DNA of 37,284 nucleotides. Origin: a virus. The notes below the pieces were generated by a model. It ran no database searches. It saw nothing but the letters and a program-made list of their open reading frames with translations, and was not told where the DNA came from. Both the position numbers and the translations under genes were made by a program. Positions 289 through 33,689 of the stretch are shown here, piece by piece; the first letter of the stretch is position 1; every line of letters starts with the position of its first letter. The stretch is taken from IMG/VR virus record IMGVR_UViG_3300037137_002360, positions 1 to 37,284 of that record; one strand, given 5' to 3'.

Positions 289-738
289 CTAATTAGACAA
301 AGGTACTCCCTTCTCATTAAGTTTTTTTATTTTTAAACAGATACTTTCCCTTGCCATTATGTCAATATCTGGAATTTTCTGGTAACGATATTTTGTTTTG
401 GCCCCATTACTCCATTTCATTGGATAATCTAAAAACAACTGGGCATGTTCTTTTTTGACTATTAAATACGGAAATATTTCCTTTGTTATTTTTATAGCTT
501 CTACACCACTCCATCTCAGTATGTAGCATGGTTTCCATTTTTTCTTGGTATCTTCCGCATTTTTGCCATTAATGCGACCCCCAAATTTATATTGTAAATG
601 TTCTAATAATCTTAAATCTGTATTGGTTATTTTTAAAATTAACTGGAAATAAATCGTATATATATAGGCTAAGAATGCACCTTCTCCATCAATTATTCCC
701 GCAAGATAGGCAATATCCATATCAGTGTAATTTGCCAT
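289..738 (-). CDS. LAGLIDADG homing endonuclease (free-standing)
   Basis: A 149-residue protein. The LAGLIDADG helix is visible at residues 13-22 (LAGIIDGEGA), with the acidic residue used for metal binding. The length suits a single-motif enzyme that works as a homodimer or a compact two-domain enzyme; a weak second motif may lie near residues 90-105. It is A+T-rich compared with its neighbours, a usual sign of a mobile gene. It sits between the tail-type gene at 783-1763 and the partial virion gene at the left edge, downstream of the former and followed by a terminator. The start is supported by a GTGGAG element about 12 bases upstream. No intron core is evident around it. Confidence 0.85.
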   Translation of the reverse strand: MANYTDMDIAYLAGIIDGEGAFLAYIYTIYFQLILKITNTDLRLLEHLQYKFGGRINGKNAEDTKKKWKPCYILRWSGVEAIKITKEIFPYLIVKKEHAQLFLDYPMKWSNGAKTKYRYQKIPDIDIMARESICLKIKKLNEKGVPLSN

Positions 739-27135: not shown

Positions 27136-28407
27136 TTACGAGGAAACCCTCTGCATTACAATTAAATGATCTGAAAGTTTAACTCCAACGTTTTCCTTAG
27201 TCCTGCGTTGTGTAGCTGCATACGATGCTTCTGTAAATTTCGGGTGTCTGACAATTATTTTGCAAAGCCGTAAACCCATATTAGATTCTGTGATACGACG
27301 TATAGTAAAAGCAGTTGTGTTAATTCGCTCACCACGGAGTATGGTATCCCCCATCATAAATACACACCAGCCTCCTCGCACCAAAATTCGAGCGATATTC
27401 CTGAGAATGGCTTCTAAATCGCTAACATATAAGTTGACGAGTTCCTTTTTCCCAATTTTAAATCCCTCCCGGACTTCATTTTGTCTTGTATCTTTATAAT
27501 CGTAGCCAAGCCAAAGCATCTCGTATTTGAAAATACTTGAATATCTGTAAAGATTGAAGTAAGGCGGGTGACAAATAACGAGATTCGTCATGGCCGGTGA
27601 AAGAAAAGGTTCCCGTGCATCGTGTAGTAAAACCTGAACCCTTGGCTTTAGGTGAAGAAGTTCATTACATACTTTAGACATTTGCATAGCTTTCTTCGTT
27701 AGGTGTTCCGAAACATCCTGGGGTGGAATAGCGGGATCGAGGAACATCCTTCCCATCCCATTACTTGCTCGTGATAACCTACGTATAATAGCGGCAAGGG
27801 CAACATTAAAGAAATTTTTGGTATTTTCATCTTTGATATACTTGTCTATAAAGAACCGTGTGCGAGCGATTCCTTGCTGAGTTTCGGGATAAAACCAATG
27901 ATCCAGATAACGATCATTCGGAATGTAGGGCGTTAGGCCTTCAGACAATTCTGCTTTATAGAAATGATTATATGCTGTAAGGGATTTAAGAACGTTTTCT
28001 CTGGGAATTGGAGTGGTTTTTACTTTTGAGATTAAACATGCTAATGGGTTTACATCCAAGCCAATCGCTACCCGTTTTAAAAGTATGGCTTCTACCAAGG
28101 TTGTTCCGCTACCCACCATCGGATCGACTACGGGCCCCCCTTCAGGATCATGGAACTCAAGGATAAAACGTTTCGCAACGGGAGGAGGAAATTTACCAAA
28201 AAAACGGAAGAATCCATGCGACAAATAATTGAGCTCGGCACTTGATCCTTCTATCTCCCAGCTTTCATAGTCACATCGTAACTGATCGAGATCCGCTTCA
28301 GCGAGGCATGAATGCAACCGTGAATTTTTGCCCCGATTATTAAAAGGTCTCTCATCGGGAAGGTTTGATAGAAAGGCTAATTTATTCTGATGATACGATT
28401 TTTTCAT
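27136..28407 (-). CDS. DNA amino-methyltransferase (N4/N6 type)
   Basis: About 423 residues. The AdoMet motif I is DPMVGSGTTLVEA (95-107), with GLDVNPLA after it, and the catalytic motif IV is CHPPYF (279-284), the (D/N/S)PP(Y/F) class with C in place of the usual first polar residue. An opening segment SHGFFRFFGKFPPPVAKRFI matches this methyltransferase class. The start at 28407 (MKKSYHQNKLAF) is used; a TTG at 28416 overlaps the upstream stop. No restriction gene is nearby, so it probably protects phage DNA from host enzymes. A stub of a partner methyltransferase follows it. Confidence 0.8.
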   Translation of the reverse strand: MKKSYHQNKLAFLSNLPDERPFNNRGKNSRLHSCLAEADLDQLRCDYESWEIEGSSAELNYLSHGFFRFFGKFPPPVAKRFILEFHDPEGGPVVDPMVGSGTTLVEAILLKRVAIGLDVNPLACLISKVKTTPIPRENVLKSLTAYNHFYKAELSEGLTPYIPNDRYLDHWFYPETQQGIARTRFFIDKYIKDENTKNFFNVALAAIIRRLSRASNGMGRMFLDPAIPPQDVSEHLTKKAMQMSKVCNELLHLKPRVQVLLHDAREPFLSPAMTNLVICHPPYFNLYRYSSIFKYEMLWLGYDYKDTRQNEVREGFKIGKKELVNLYVSDLEAILRNIARILVRGGWCVFMMGDTILRGERINTTAFTIRRITESNMGLRLCKIIVRHPKFTEASYAATQRRTKENVGVKLSDHLIVMQRVSS

Positions 28408-28412
28408 ACTTA

Positions 28413-28616
28413 TCAATCGTGCCCAAACGTAGCCCGGTAATTATCCCGATACGCCTCGGAGACGGTCTTTCCTTTGCAGGCCGGGCACTGACAAACCTTA
28501 TTGGGAGGTCCTTCTGAATGGCTACCATCCCAAATCTGGCCGCAGCCGGTGCAGGCAAATTTTTCATCCTGTGGCCTTCTGAATTTACTTCTATAAACTG
28601 CTTTCCATTTGGACAT
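28413..28616 (-). CDS. Zinc-ribbon protein
   Basis: A 67-residue protein with FACTGCGQIWDG (20-31) and CQCPACKGKTVSEAY (43-57), two CxxC pairs as in a zinc ribbon. AAGGAG lies 6 bases before the start. The solitary CRISPR-like repeat lies 25 bases upstream of its start codon, in its leader region as read from the minus strand. No specific family recognised. Confidence 0.65.
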   Translation of the reverse strand: MSKWKAVYRSKFRRPQDEKFACTGCGQIWDGSHSEGPPNKVCQCPACKGKTVSEAYRDNYRATFGHD

Positions 28617-28640
28617 CTCGTACTCCTTGAAATTGTTTTA

Positions 28641-28672
28641 GTCGCTCCCCGCACGGGAGCATGGATTGAAAC
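28641..28672 (+). CRISPR. Solitary type I-C-like CRISPR repeat (possible RNA anti-CRISPR)
   Basis: A single 32-base unit: GTCGCTCCCC (28641-28650), GCACGGGAGC (28651-28660), ATGGATTGAAAC (28661-28672). This is the classic type I-C repeat layout: GTCG start, a GC-rich stem (GCTCCC with GGGAGC, 6 pairs, loop CGCAC) and the TGGATTGAAAC end that becomes the 5' handle of I-C crRNAs. No second copy is seen within the window and no cas gene is near. It lies in a 79-base gap between two phage genes. Phage-borne solitary repeats can act as RNA anti-CRISPRs that bind Cas proteins. No clear plus-strand promoter is visible. Confidence 0.8.
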
Positions 28673-28695
28673 ATTCTATCCACATACGGTCTTCC

Positions 28696-28968
28696 TTACC
28701 CCACCCTAACCGTTGACCCCGAAGAATCTGGTATAACGAACTGCCCACCAGCCACCATCTCGGCCTCTTGGAGGGTCATCTTCCGATGGGTCCGCTCGAA
28801 GGTTTCCTTCTCGGACCAATCGACATCGTTATCCTCGGCATATCTCACCCGATAGCCATGTCGATTAGGCTTCTCTTCGTCCCAGGCCTGACCTTTACTA
28901 AAGGCAAAATCCCTTTCGTCCATTGGTTCGGCCGCCACAACCTTCGTGCCTATAAAAATCTCTTCCAT
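28696..28968 (-). CDS. Phage Gp49/66-like small protein
   Basis: A 90-residue protein. The layout KVVAAEPMDERDFAFSKGQA, GYRVRYAEDNDVDWSEKETF and ERTHRKM resembles the phage Gp49/66 family ('I..KVV.A.PM......Y.GY.V.YEDGY.SW.PKE.FE..YR'). The start at 28968 has AAAAGGAGGA 6 bases upstream; the frame to 29007 has none. Members are of unknown role. It precedes the solitary CRISPR-like repeat. Confidence 0.6.
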   Translation of the reverse strand: MEEIFIGTKVVAAEPMDERDFAFSKGQAWDEEKPNRHGYRVRYAEDNDVDWSEKETFERTHRKMTLQEAEMVAGGQFVIPDSSGSTVRVG

Positions 28969-29037
28969 CAGATCCTCCTTTTGACCCATTCTTTTATCCG
29001 GATCCAAACAACCATGACTTTCCTCGTCCAGAATAGC

Positions 29038-29924: not shown

Positions 29925-32900
29925 CTATCTCCTATCCCCTTTATACCTCTGGTTGAAATCAACATTCACGGCATAACTTTTGGCCAGATTCTGAGGCGGT
30001 GGTAGATCCGTCGGCTTTACCCTCCTTGGAGTTGTGATCGAACAGTACAAAACCGCCTCACCTTTGTCGGGGGATCTCCCCAACCTCCTCTTGAGTCCAG
30101 CAATCTTCACCCCGTCGGCCCCTACTTTGTCCTCTTTCGACTCAACCAAAATCCCTCCGGGGGTAAGTGTCCATAGAGCGGCGCAAAGGTCGGCTTTCAG
30201 TTCTGGGTCTGGAGGTAGAGCCACGTTGTCACCCGTCTTTGGATCCAAACTTTCTCTGAATCTCCAATAAATGAAGGAGCGCATATTCCGAAACCTAAGC
30301 TTTTGAGTGAGTTTGTCGGTTTTCCCCTCCGGCGCAGCCTCCGAACTGTTCACGGCAATGACGTGGATCTTATTGGACCTCAGATGGTCAAAGACAGAAC
30401 TATTTCCAGACCAAAAACATTTTCCATTTCTTCTGGTATATAGCAAATGCGACGGTCCTACCTCAACACAATAAACCTTCCCGCGATATTTCCTGGTCTT
30501 CACACTTTTTAATCGCAACAACATATCGCAATTATTTCTTTTCCACTCTACGATTCCATATCCATCGGTCGTTCTGGTTATCGTCCTATTTTCGATTACG
30601 GAGGTGCTTCCCTTAAAGTGTCTTTTTGTGATAGAAGCATATTTCCCTGTTTTCAGGATCAACTCTTGTAGACCGTCCGCCAAAACTTTTGATGAGGTTG
30701 AAAAATATCTTACGCCCTCACTTGTCCAACCATCTCCCTTATGGAATGCATCCAGAAATATCTCGATCTGTCTCGGTGATAATTTTCCTATAGATTCTGG
30801 GATTCTTTTATTGGTAGCCCCCTCCCCGAGAGACCGAACGTATTGATACAGTTGTTTTGAATTTATTAAGAAGTTGTGGGTATCTTTCTGTATTTTTTCT
30901 CGAAAGTGAAAGCCAAGCGACCGAAGCATCTCCCCTATTTCTCCTATGTGATCTTTTTTTTTCTGAACTATACCAACAGTGTAACCATCCCGGGTTGTAT
31001 ACCCTTCGCTTAAAACCCACCCAAGAAACTTACAGAATATATCCATCTCAATTTTTATCTCTGGGACATTATGCTCAACTCTGACATGATTGCCGGTCAC
31101 CGCCTTATTCGTACCCTTCTTTAATCCTGGGAAAATTCTGGTTGTTTTAGGTAACACAAAACATTTTTCCTCAACACCATCCCATAGGAAGGTTCTCTTC
31201 ATTCTTAAATAATCTATTCCGACTTCGTTCGCTGGAGTCATCCTCCATTTGCTCGTTCTGCGATTGTTGTAGCATCTATAAAACAGATTATGATTAGGGG
31301 TTATACAAAAATTGGTATTCTGCCCATTAAAGTAGAGCATTTCTCCATCATATTCATACGTAAAATATTCCGTAGGTTCGGCGTAGAACGCTTTACAGTT
31401 CTTTGGATTCATCGTTAAAACTTTGATGCCTTTTTCAAGATCATCAAAACGCCTCCATCCCAATTCGGTCAAAATATCTGTCTCATCATCAAAACATCCG
31501 ATCCCTATCACATCGACATGGATCGGAGCTCCATCTTTAAGAGCAGTGATGACCAATCCAGCAGCCGTTGCTCCATCAGGTGTTTTGATCCCTGGATAGC
31601 AAATCAGGGGGGAGTACCATGCTCCATATCGCGTGGAGATCACGGTACGGTCACTCCCTCCTCTTGCCACGTCCACCCCTACCGAATCCATGGCTCCCTT
31701 CTTTCCGTCCTCTTTCCAGCGAGCCTGGGCCTCCTCAACCCATGCCGTCGGTATTACCTGCCATTCCGAATCCCGAATACCGGCCTGAAAGTTCCCTTCG
31801 AGCATCTGGGAGCGTAAGGGCTCAGGCAAGGCCTGAAGGACTGCCTCGTAGTTCGTACCCATCAAAAAGGGGTTGTCCTGTACTTTGGAGGGAATGAATG
31901 TTCGGGACATCGGCTTGACCATGACCCCTTTGACCCGGATCGGCTTACCGTCTGGAACCTCCACATCCTTCCCATCGATCGTGGTGTACCAACGGAGCTC
32001 CCCAGGTTCAGCTGGGTGTGGATGCTTAGGATCGAGCCAAGGACCCCAATAAGAGATTACCCATCGGCCATCCTCATTTACTGGGGGGTTCCCGGTACAA
32101 ACGATCCGACAGCGCTGTCCCTGAATGGTGGTTCGTAACCAGGTACACAGGAAGCGGAATTGATGTTCCAGAAAGTTACAAATTTCATCGAAAAAACAGC
32201 CGTCATGAGCGCGCCCTTGCCAACGAGTCTCATCTCCGGGATCTTTACAGCTGCCAAATTCAATTTGACGATCGTGAAGTCTCCAAATCAACTGTTGAGA
32301 ATTCAAACCATCCCGTGTACCGAGAATCTCTGCCATTCGATCAACCAACCCAACCGTTTGAGTGGCCTCACGCCTAAACACTATGGACCGTTTGTGCTGG
32401 GTCAGAGCAAGGCCAAGAAGAAGATCACTGTTATGGGTAGGGATCATTGAACGACTAACAAGGTAAAGCCCTGTCGGATTGTCCACCGTCAAACATCTCA
32501 TTGGCATCGGTTTTGTCGGCTCACAACTAACAATATATCGAGCCCTATTCATTCCTTTGCGAGCAAGATTTATATTTCGCAATTTATTAAGGTTTTTTGG
32601 AGTGGCGAATATATCAAAAACGGGAGAACTCGTACATACCTGCCAGGAATTTGCCACATTCCTTGACTTGGATTTCCCCCGCCGAGTATGTACCTGAATT
32701 CTTGCCCTCATTCCTAAACTAACCAATAATTCAAAAACAGACTCACATAGTTTATAATTTGTATTAGTAAAACTGCATTTCCTTTCTACACAACTTCCAT
32801 CACTATCAAATAAACCGGCCAATAATAATCTTCTTTGTTCTATGGAAGCCCTAAGATATTCTTGAGGAATATATTTACCCAAATGAAGACCATATTTTCT

Positions 32901-33689
32901 CCACGCCTTTCCTATCCCTTTTACAAAGAAATGTTCACTGTCTGACGGCAGGGTGAAACGATAACCATATTTTTGGAAAACGGTAATTATTTCATCTCGC
33001 TCGTTGGAATTGCAGGCTACTCTTCCCTCGCCTTTTGTGTCCCCGTCACCTAACAAATAACCCAACACATACGGATGCATTGGAAGTGAAACTTCTTCAA
33101 GAACAAGAGGCTTTGTGCAAGGGATACAATGACGAAGAGATTTTGATTTATAAATTTCAAGGGTGGTTTTTATCGTTCCAAGTATTCTCCCGGATTTAGT
33201 TTTGAACAAACCCCAATTGTGCGGAAATGTATCACGTTGTTTCAATCTTTCACGATAATACCGTCTATCTGACTTGGTCCAGGTAAGCCAGCGATGATCT
33301 GAAGAGGCATCTATCTCTGTCCCATCATCAAATTTGAGTCGATAGCTAACCGGCGATGGGTTAATAGGATGAATTTGTAAAACTCGAATTAATTTTCCAA
33401 GTTCTGAAAAAACAAGATCTCTCTCTTGAATTTCCCCTATTGTCGTCCATCCACCTTGAGTAGGAATCGGGGTATCAAGGGCTAACGCTTTCGACCCGCC
33501 TGCTGAACCACCAAAAAACACAATATCGGCAGGGTTCTCAAGTGCCTCCATCTGTGGACCAGGCAGCGGCGTCCAGGTTGGATTGTCAAGATTCTCCAAA
33601 ACCTCCCTTTGCAATTCCAGAAGTTCCTCGGAATTTAATCCTTCTAAAATGTGAGAGAGTTCAATTATTTGTTTGGCCGAAGATTGCAA
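29925..33689 (-). CDS. terL: Terminase large subunit with two inteins
   Basis: A 1254-codon gene; without the two inteins the protein is about 536 residues, the normal length for TerL. The ATPase P-loop reads GGSAGGSK (60-67), then intein 1, then SDLLLGLA. Walker B-type CFFDEI is at 498-503, the first nuclease aspartate is in SVGVDVARGGSDRT (669-682), and a second active-site region, HVDVIGIG, is interrupted by intein 2 before SSVFDHL. The late nuclease motif is GRSPDKGEAVLY. The start is TTG at 33689 with GAGGAAAG upstream. TerL cuts and pumps DNA into the head. Both inteins sit in the most conserved sites. Confidence 0.95.
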   Translation of the reverse strand: MQSSAKQIIELSHILEGLNSEELLELQREVLENLDNPTWTPLPGPQMEALENPADIVFFGGSAGGSKALALDTPIPTQGGWTTIGEIQERDLVFSELGKLIRVLQIHPINPSPVSYRLKFDDGTEIDASSDHRWLTWTKSDRRYYRERLKQRDTFPHNWGLFKTKSGRILGTIKTTLEIYKSKSLRHCIPCTKPLVLEEVSLPMHPYVLGYLLGDGDTKGEGRVACNSNERDEIITVFQKYGYRFTLPSDSEHFFVKGIGKAWRKYGLHLGKYIPQEYLRASIEQRRLLLAGLFDSDGSCVERKCSFTNTNYKLCESVFELLVSLGMRARIQVHTRRGKSKSRNVANSWQVCTSSPVFDIFATPKNLNKLRNINLARKGMNRARYIVSCEPTKPMPMRCLTVDNPTGLYLVSRSMIPTHNSDLLLGLALTQHKRSIVFRREATQTVGLVDRMAEILGTRDGLNSQQLIWRLHDRQIEFGSCKDPGDETRWQGRAHDGCFFDEICNFLEHQFRFLCTWLRTTIQGQRCRIVCTGNPPVNEDGRWVISYWGPWLDPKHPHPAEPGELRWYTTIDGKDVEVPDGKPIRVKGVMVKPMSRTFIPSKVQDNPFLMGTNYEAVLQALPEPLRSQMLEGNFQAGIRDSEWQVIPTAWVEEAQARWKEDGKKGAMDSVGVDVARGGSDRTVISTRYGAWYSPLICYPGIKTPDGATAAGLVITALKDGAPIHVDVIGIGCFDDETDILTELGWRRFDDLEKGIKVLTMNPKNCKAFYAEPTEYFTYEYDGEMLYFNGQNTNFCITPNHNLFYRCYNNRRTSKWRMTPANEVGIDYLRMKRTFLWDGVEEKCFVLPKTTRIFPGLKKGTNKAVTGNHVRVEHNVPEIKIEMDIFCKFLGWVLSEGYTTRDGYTVGIVQKKKDHIGEIGEMLRSLGFHFREKIQKDTHNFLINSKQLYQYVRSLGEGATNKRIPESIGKLSPRQIEIFLDAFHKGDGWTSEGVRYFSTSSKVLADGLQELILKTGKYASITKRHFKGSTSVIENRTITRTTDGYGIVEWKRNNCDMLLRLKSVKTRKYRGKVYCVEVGPSHLLYTRRNGKCFWSGNSSVFDHLRSNKIHVIAVNSSEAAPEGKTDKLTQKLRFRNMRSFIYWRFRESLDPKTGDNVALPPDPELKADLCAALWTLTPGGILVESKEDKVGADGVKIAGLKRRLGRSPDKGEAVLYCSITTPRRVKPTDLPPPQNLAKSYAVNVDFNQRYKGDRR
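30402..31496 (-). mobile_element. Intein 2 of TerL (nuclease-domain site, Cys1)
   Basis: 365 residues (732-1096). It starts with the splicing block CFDDETDILTELGWRRFDDL and has the block B-type TPNHNLF (797-803). Two LAGLIDADG-type motifs are LGWVLSEGYT (889-898) and FLDAFHKGDG (978-987), so it encodes a homing endonuclease. It ends HLLYTRRNGKCFWSGN, followed by Ser+1. The penultimate residue is Gly rather than His, as in some inteins. Confidence 0.9.
32430..33488 (-). mobile_element. Intein 1 of TerL (P-loop site, Ala1)
   Basis: 353 residues (68-420). It starts ALALDTPIPTQGGWTTIGEI, so its first residue is Ala instead of the usual Cys or Ser if the host P-loop is GGSAGGSK-S. Block B is DASSDHRW. 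The LAGLIDADG-type motifs are LGYLLGDGDT (209-218) and LLAGLFDSDG (289-298). It ends GLYLVSRSMIPTHN followed by Ser+1. Ala1 inteins splice by a route without the first acyl shift. Confidence 0.9.

Follow-up and report, generated by a model that had tools for sequence, protein, structure and literature searches.

A solitary repeat between two minus-strand genes

The DNA analysed here, referred to as the window, is a virus record of 37,284 bases, a metagenome-derived fragment whose genes lie nearly all on the minus strand and encode, among others, terminase subunits, a portal/adaptor protein, a major head protein, a head-closure protein and two DNA methyltransferases. The terminase large subunit (29925-33689, minus strand, 1254 aa) contains two apparent inteins, one following residue 68 in the Walker A region (GGSK/ALALDT...THN/S, with LAGLIDADG) and the other spanning about residues 732-1097 (C...GN/S); the terminase of the related contig L022 is uninterrupted. 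Elsewhere in the window, a gap of 79 nt (28617-28695) separates two minus-strand ORFs, the first of which encodes a 67-aa protein with a weak match, under the curated cut-off, to FmdB-type zinc ribbons. In this gap the plus strand reads GTCGCTCCCCGCACGGGAGCATGGATTGAAAC, a 32-mer resembling a type I-C CRISPR repeat, with GTCG at the 5' start, a GCTCCC/GGGAGC stem (6 bp, loop CGCAC) and TGGATTGAAAC at the 3' end (Table 1).

A preliminary description of the window had reported a 32-base unit with these landmarks on the plus strand, alone in a 79-base gap within a minus-strand phage operon and accompanied by no second repeat, array or cas gene, and all of this was confirmed. When the whole window was scanned on both strands with up to 9 mismatches allowed, no second copy of the unit was found; its 100-nt flanks contain no partial copies, and their resemblance to the unit is no higher than that of shuffled sequence. 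Likewise, no cas gene was present among the window proteins scanned, which were a subset of the ORFs, and the two flanking ORFs place the operon on the minus strand. An Rfam scan of the window returned a tRNA only. One feature absent from that description is base 21 of the unit, which is A where near-identical array repeats have G (A21 hereafter).

Table 1. Positions of the repeat unit and of the features around it in the window.
Feature	Position	Strand	Evidence
Putative zinc-ribbon protein (67 aa); operon gene downstream of the unit	28413-28616	-	tblastn, 69-79% identity in L002, L003 and L024
35-nt stretch between TTC (28603-28605) and the unit	28606-28640	+	Spacer/protospacer length, type I-C PAM
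CTAAAACAATTTCAAGGAG..., last codons (LKQFQG) of an HNH/NUMOD3 ORF	28617-28641	-	BLASTN, translations, alignment
Longer predicted hairpin, upstream flank pairing with the unit's 3' tail	28634-28673	+	Folds
Solitary type I-C-like repeat unit (SRU; Racr candidate)	28641-28672	+	31/32 identity to L005 and L006 array repeats; no second copy
Stem-loop GCTCCC-CGCAC-GGGAGC within the unit	28644-28660	+	RNA fold, -11.4 kcal/mol, z -2.1
A21 (G in near-identical array repeats)	28661	+	Repeat comparison; cut position from PMC3890593
Protein of 103 aa, phrog_9467-like; operon gene upstream of the unit	28696-29007	-	Conserved in L002, L003 and L004

The sequence between the unit and the 67-aa gene is the residue of another gene. 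In the related contig L024, an ORF of the HNH/NUMOD3 type, in which NUMOD3 was found, lies ahead of the 67-aa gene, whose start it overlaps, and the same ORF, frameshifted, occupies this position in L002. Between the unit and the 67-aa start codon, the window retains only the last codons of this ORF, and the BLASTN match to L002 starts at position 28641, which is also the unit's first base; judged from these two observations, the unit marks the truncation point of the HNH gene. A further HNH remnant on the other side of the unit was considered and rejected, its alignment being no better than that of shuffled sequences.

Type I-C arrays, predicted fold and orientation

Solitary repeat units (SRUs) on viruses, and RNA anti-CRISPRs (Racrs) that originate from such units, are known from Camara-Wilpert et al., who reported 2,103 SRUs on viral sequences (SRUFinder), tested nine candidates and established Racrs experimentally, including the type I-C RacrIC1 (PMC10651486); this work is summarised in a 2024 review (PMC11656645). 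An SRU is there intergenic, solitary and similar to a known CRISPR repeat with at least 90% identity and coverage and at least 41.1 bits. The window unit is an SRU by these published criteria, which are the ones stated for the phage SRUs of SRUFinder, because its gap is intergenic and flanked by conserved ORFs, no full or partial repeat lies within 100 bp, and it matches the G21 form of the repeat at 31/32 positions with 56.0 bits (BLASTn-short). Virus-borne mini-arrays (PMC6858448; PMC11656645) also bring a host-type CRISPR repeat onto a virus, but they have a spacer between two repeats, whereas the window has one repeat only.

An exact copy of the 32-mer was found neither in IMG/VR nor in GTDB genome contigs. 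With position 21 left free, the pattern led to three genomes: Cohnella, with an array of 32 repeats, two of them with one mismatch; Ca. Brocadia sapporoensis, with an array of four repeats; and a Nitrospirae MAG (L007, DBS2-1.bin129), with one lone copy. The latter copy (680-711, plus strand) immediately follows a type I-E array, and the genome gave no Cas5d match. Against the array repeats of L005 and L006 the sole difference of the unit is A21 versus G21, and a chance origin of the match is excluded, because a 31/32-position match to real array repeats has an arithmetical expectation of ~4e-13 per repeat in a 37-kb window. Arrays with near-identical repeats, for which the preliminary description had advised a search, therefore do exist. 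They can be assigned to type I-C, which requires arrays in genomes with an I-C cas operon, by Cas5d genes (TIGR01876): Cas5d is encoded in both array genomes, Cohnella and Ca. Brocadia, lies ~7-9 kb from arrays of closely similar repeats on the same contig in G010, G296 and G330, and is also close to the array in G613. In the search for a host of the phage, repeats within two mismatches of the unit were found in 9/396 and 5/392 sampled genomes of two phyla, and an identical repeat in none of them. The 158 spacers taken from arrays with similar repeats gave no convincing match to the phage (the best being 15 nt); a phage record collection yielded short matches only to the repeat, and a plasmid record collection yielded imperfect repeats.

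As RNA, the 32-mer is predicted to fold as ...((((((.....))))))............, which is the hairpin of the near-identical array repeat minus one closing pair. Cas5d recognises the hairpin plus the single-stranded 3' part of the repeat and cuts at the hairpin base, giving pieces of 21 nt and 11 nt (PMC3890593). A21 is the base just 5' of this cut, and with it the C3-G21 pair is lost, which counts against a Racr; the change might favour binding without cutting, and equally could weaken binding. One real array, that of G168, has an A21 repeat, and since this is the next-to-last of its 21 repeats, A21 also fits, on sequence comparison, a captured trailing array repeat. A second point against a Racr is that in the predicted fold the 3' tail, single-stranded for Cas5d recognition, joins the upstream flank to form a longer hairpin, which 2.4% of flank shuffles equal in folding and of which two G-U pairs on the plus strand become A-C mismatches on the minus strand. 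This pairing is probably fortuitous, because the flank is also conserved in L002, which lacks the unit.

The earlier remark that no strong plus-strand promoter is visible also stands. In scans for sigma-70-type consensus sequences no plus-strand promoter rose above chance: the stretch scanned contains a single promoter-like site, at 28365-28394, which agrees with the consensus at 9/12 positions and is of a quality expected 0.8 times by chance, and the best site within 120 nt of the unit is no better than those in shuffled sequence. For the candidates tested in PMC10651486, the choice rested on similarity and on the presence of a promoter no more than 250 bp upstream; the window unit has no evident sense promoter within about that distance. 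Apart from the DNA methyltransferases, no acr, cas or other defence genes were recognised adjoining the unit.

Related phages and solitary units on other contigs

With the flanking genes and the terminase as queries, the following relatives were retrieved: L002, L003/L023, L004/L022, L020, L021 and L024. The unit is absent from all of them, and L002, L003 and L024 extend through the locus; the conservation in related phages that had been proposed as a check on its function is thus lacking. Gene order is kept in L002 and L003, with 3.1 kb and 0.5 kb, respectively, between the two flanking genes. The 103-aa gene was not detected in L024, and in L022 there follow 708 nt of other sequence up to the end of the contig, within which the second flanking gene is not met. 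An HNH endonuclease ORF takes the place of the unit in two of the three locus-spanning relatives (L024 and L002).

Solitary type I-C units are also found on other phage contigs. A looser pattern retrieved them from IMG/VR in L008, L010, L011, L013, L014, L015, L017, L018 and L019; L009 gave a unit of two repeats, L012/L016 gave true arrays, and the A21 pattern added one further contig with a solitary unit, L025. The units of L018 and L025 are, like that of the window, antisense to their neighbouring ORFs. L011 (6902-6933, minus strand) and L017 (3375-3406, plus strand) are related contigs bearing a unit at a shared site, with a sigma-70-like sequence, TTGACA-18-TATGGT, 24 nt upstream, which fewer than 4% of shuffles equal. 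From their sequence, these two look like good Racr candidates, and better ones than the window unit; the window does not share the promoter-like site.

The surroundings of the remaining units are diverse. One contig, IMGVR_UViG_3300032156_001598, has two identical units in opposite orientation, of which L008 (5365-5396, minus strand) adjoins an RRXRR gene (IscB-superfamily-like) and L015 (1144-1175, plus strand) forms an in-frame fusion with a truncated HNH domain. The unit in L010 (1076-1107, plus strand) follows a TnpB (OrfB_IS605) gene at a distance of ~120 nt from its 3' end, close to where the guide part of the TnpB RNA would be expected. In L013 (12871-13347, minus strand), a conserved phage gene belonging to the 'LTLRQLYYQFV...DARLAG' family is cut short by a unit immediately behind DARLAG. 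An interruption of the terminase by the L014 unit was considered and rejected: in both L014 (2314-3445) and the related MW202785.1 (L027, 1381-3013) the terminase large subunit is encoded as two ORFs, and because MW202785 is split at the same place, the L014 unit occupies a natural gap between the two halves. Finally, the virus contig L012/L016 (IMGVR_UViG_3300020112_001167), 51.6 kb long, contains a real I-C array in two stretches, amounting to at least 27 repeats.

Decoy, scar or junction

The most likely account of the unit, tentative as it is, is that of a captured I-C repeat acting as a Racr-type decoy. The phage lineage would have captured a type I-C CRISPR repeat as a solitary unit and kept it in an accessory-gene hotspot from which the HNH endonuclease gene was lost. 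Plus-strand transcription, if any, would then yield a short transcript that contains the hairpin of the I-C repeat and could tie up Cas5c/Cas5d, the crRNA nuclease of the host, and possibly also Cas7, in a non-productive complex. What is established is the sequence of the unit, its solitary state, the near-identical arrays in Cas5d genomes and the similar units on other phage contigs; we infer its transcription, its binding to Cas proteins and the inhibition of immunity. The closest known counterpart is RacrIC1, next to acrIC5 in a Bifidobacterium pseudocatenulatum prophage (PMC10651486), likewise a solitary I-C repeat in a phage intergenic gap and directed at the same kind of host target, type I-C with Cas5-processed repeats. 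However, RacrIC1 is co-transcribed in the sense orientation with acrIC5 and its inhibition was tested, whereas the window unit is a candidate, antisense to its operon and with no evident promoter or acr. RacrIF1, from a Thiocystis violascens prophage (PMC10651486), is again a solitary repeat in a phage intergenic region and serves as a model for the sequestering of Cas proteins, but it belongs to type I-F, involves Cas6f instead of Cas5c, and has its own strong promoter and a proven RNA.

The proposal of a candidate RNA anti-CRISPR, made in the preliminary description, is therefore upheld in part. In its favour are the SRU class of the unit, intergenic and solitary with full-repeat identity, the real I-C arrays in genomes encoding Cas5d, and the solitary I-C units in other IMG/VR contigs, above all those of L011/L017 with their shared site and promoter-like sequence; against it are the lack of a promoter above chance, the antisense orientation, the absence from the locus-spanning relatives, the want of an exact repeat match and of a convincing spacer match, and a neighbourhood in which no acr-like gene was recognised. 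An anti-CRISPR function is plausible by analogy, the unit being a candidate decoy and not a demonstrated one. The main rival, nearly as likely, is an inert scar, in which a repeat, perhaps a trailing one, was gained by recombination when the HNH gene was lost and has neither sense expression nor function. The same lack of promoter and of conservation speaks for a scar, as do the position of the unit exactly at the truncation point of the HNH ORF, the in-frame fusion of the L015 unit with a truncated HNH domain, the gene truncated by the L013 unit, and the place of the A21 repeat in the G168 array, as expected for a decayed trailing repeat. An old neutral insert would decay, however, whereas here 31/32 bases survive, those of the stem and the GGATTGAAAC tail among them, and solitary I-C units recur in several phage contigs.

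A third account takes the locus as a junction with an array, running from the phage through a 35-nt protospacer (28606-28640) into one array repeat and on to a second protospacer in the phage, either as an assembly artefact caused by shared spacer k-mers or as a rare recombination product. Taken jointly, these two versions are unlikely. TTC is the type I-C PAM (PMC8406640), and it stands exactly 35 nt upstream of the unit, as it does at 34 nt in L025, while real spacers are mostly 33-36 nt long; nevertheless, a TTC at 33-36 nt has a chance of ~6% per site, and its presence at 2/12 solitary sites is not significantly above chance. The homology to L002 that stops exactly at the unit would also suit a junction, as would the distances between the flanking genes in L003 and L002 and the L022 stretch that ends before the second gene, but gene order is preserved across the unit, and no array with the flanks as spacers was found among the 158 spacers. 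Should an assembly artefact be the cause, the repeat would be missing from the real phage, in which further sequence would separate the two flanking genes.

Least probable of all is a function on the minus strand, where the operon lies: the reverse complement could form a hairpin in the operon mRNA that controls translation or stability, or an anti-repeat RNA against host pre-crRNA. The predicted hairpin is stable (-12.7 kcal/mol) and is placed ~28 nt upstream of the 67-aa start codon, just before the ribosome-binding site, and the antisense units of L018 and L025 are in keeping with such a role. However, a regulatory hairpin would have no reason to retain the GGATTGAAAC tail, relatives have the 67-aa gene without any hairpin, and the publications examined contained no earlier case of a Racr acting as an antisense anti-repeat. 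Hardly less speculative is a wider idea prompted by the nucleases next to several units, namely HNH remnants in the window and L015, an RRXRR IscB-superfamily-like gene in L008 and TnpB in L010: solitary I-C repeats of phages may recurrently sit at the scars of, or beside, homing or transposon-type nuclease genes, perhaps captured or spread through nuclease-driven recombination and turning into decoys only later, some of them, the window unit included, in antisense or non-cleavable (A21) form.

Some solitary repeats lie at gene truncations and may be scars or array joins instead of working anti-CRISPRs, which bears on the counts of Racr candidates drawn from metagenomic virus collections. The unit adds a candidate to the RNA decoys with which phages may counter type I-C immunity, and two of its features are worth testing, the change at the base where Cas5c cuts and the orientation opposite to the operon.
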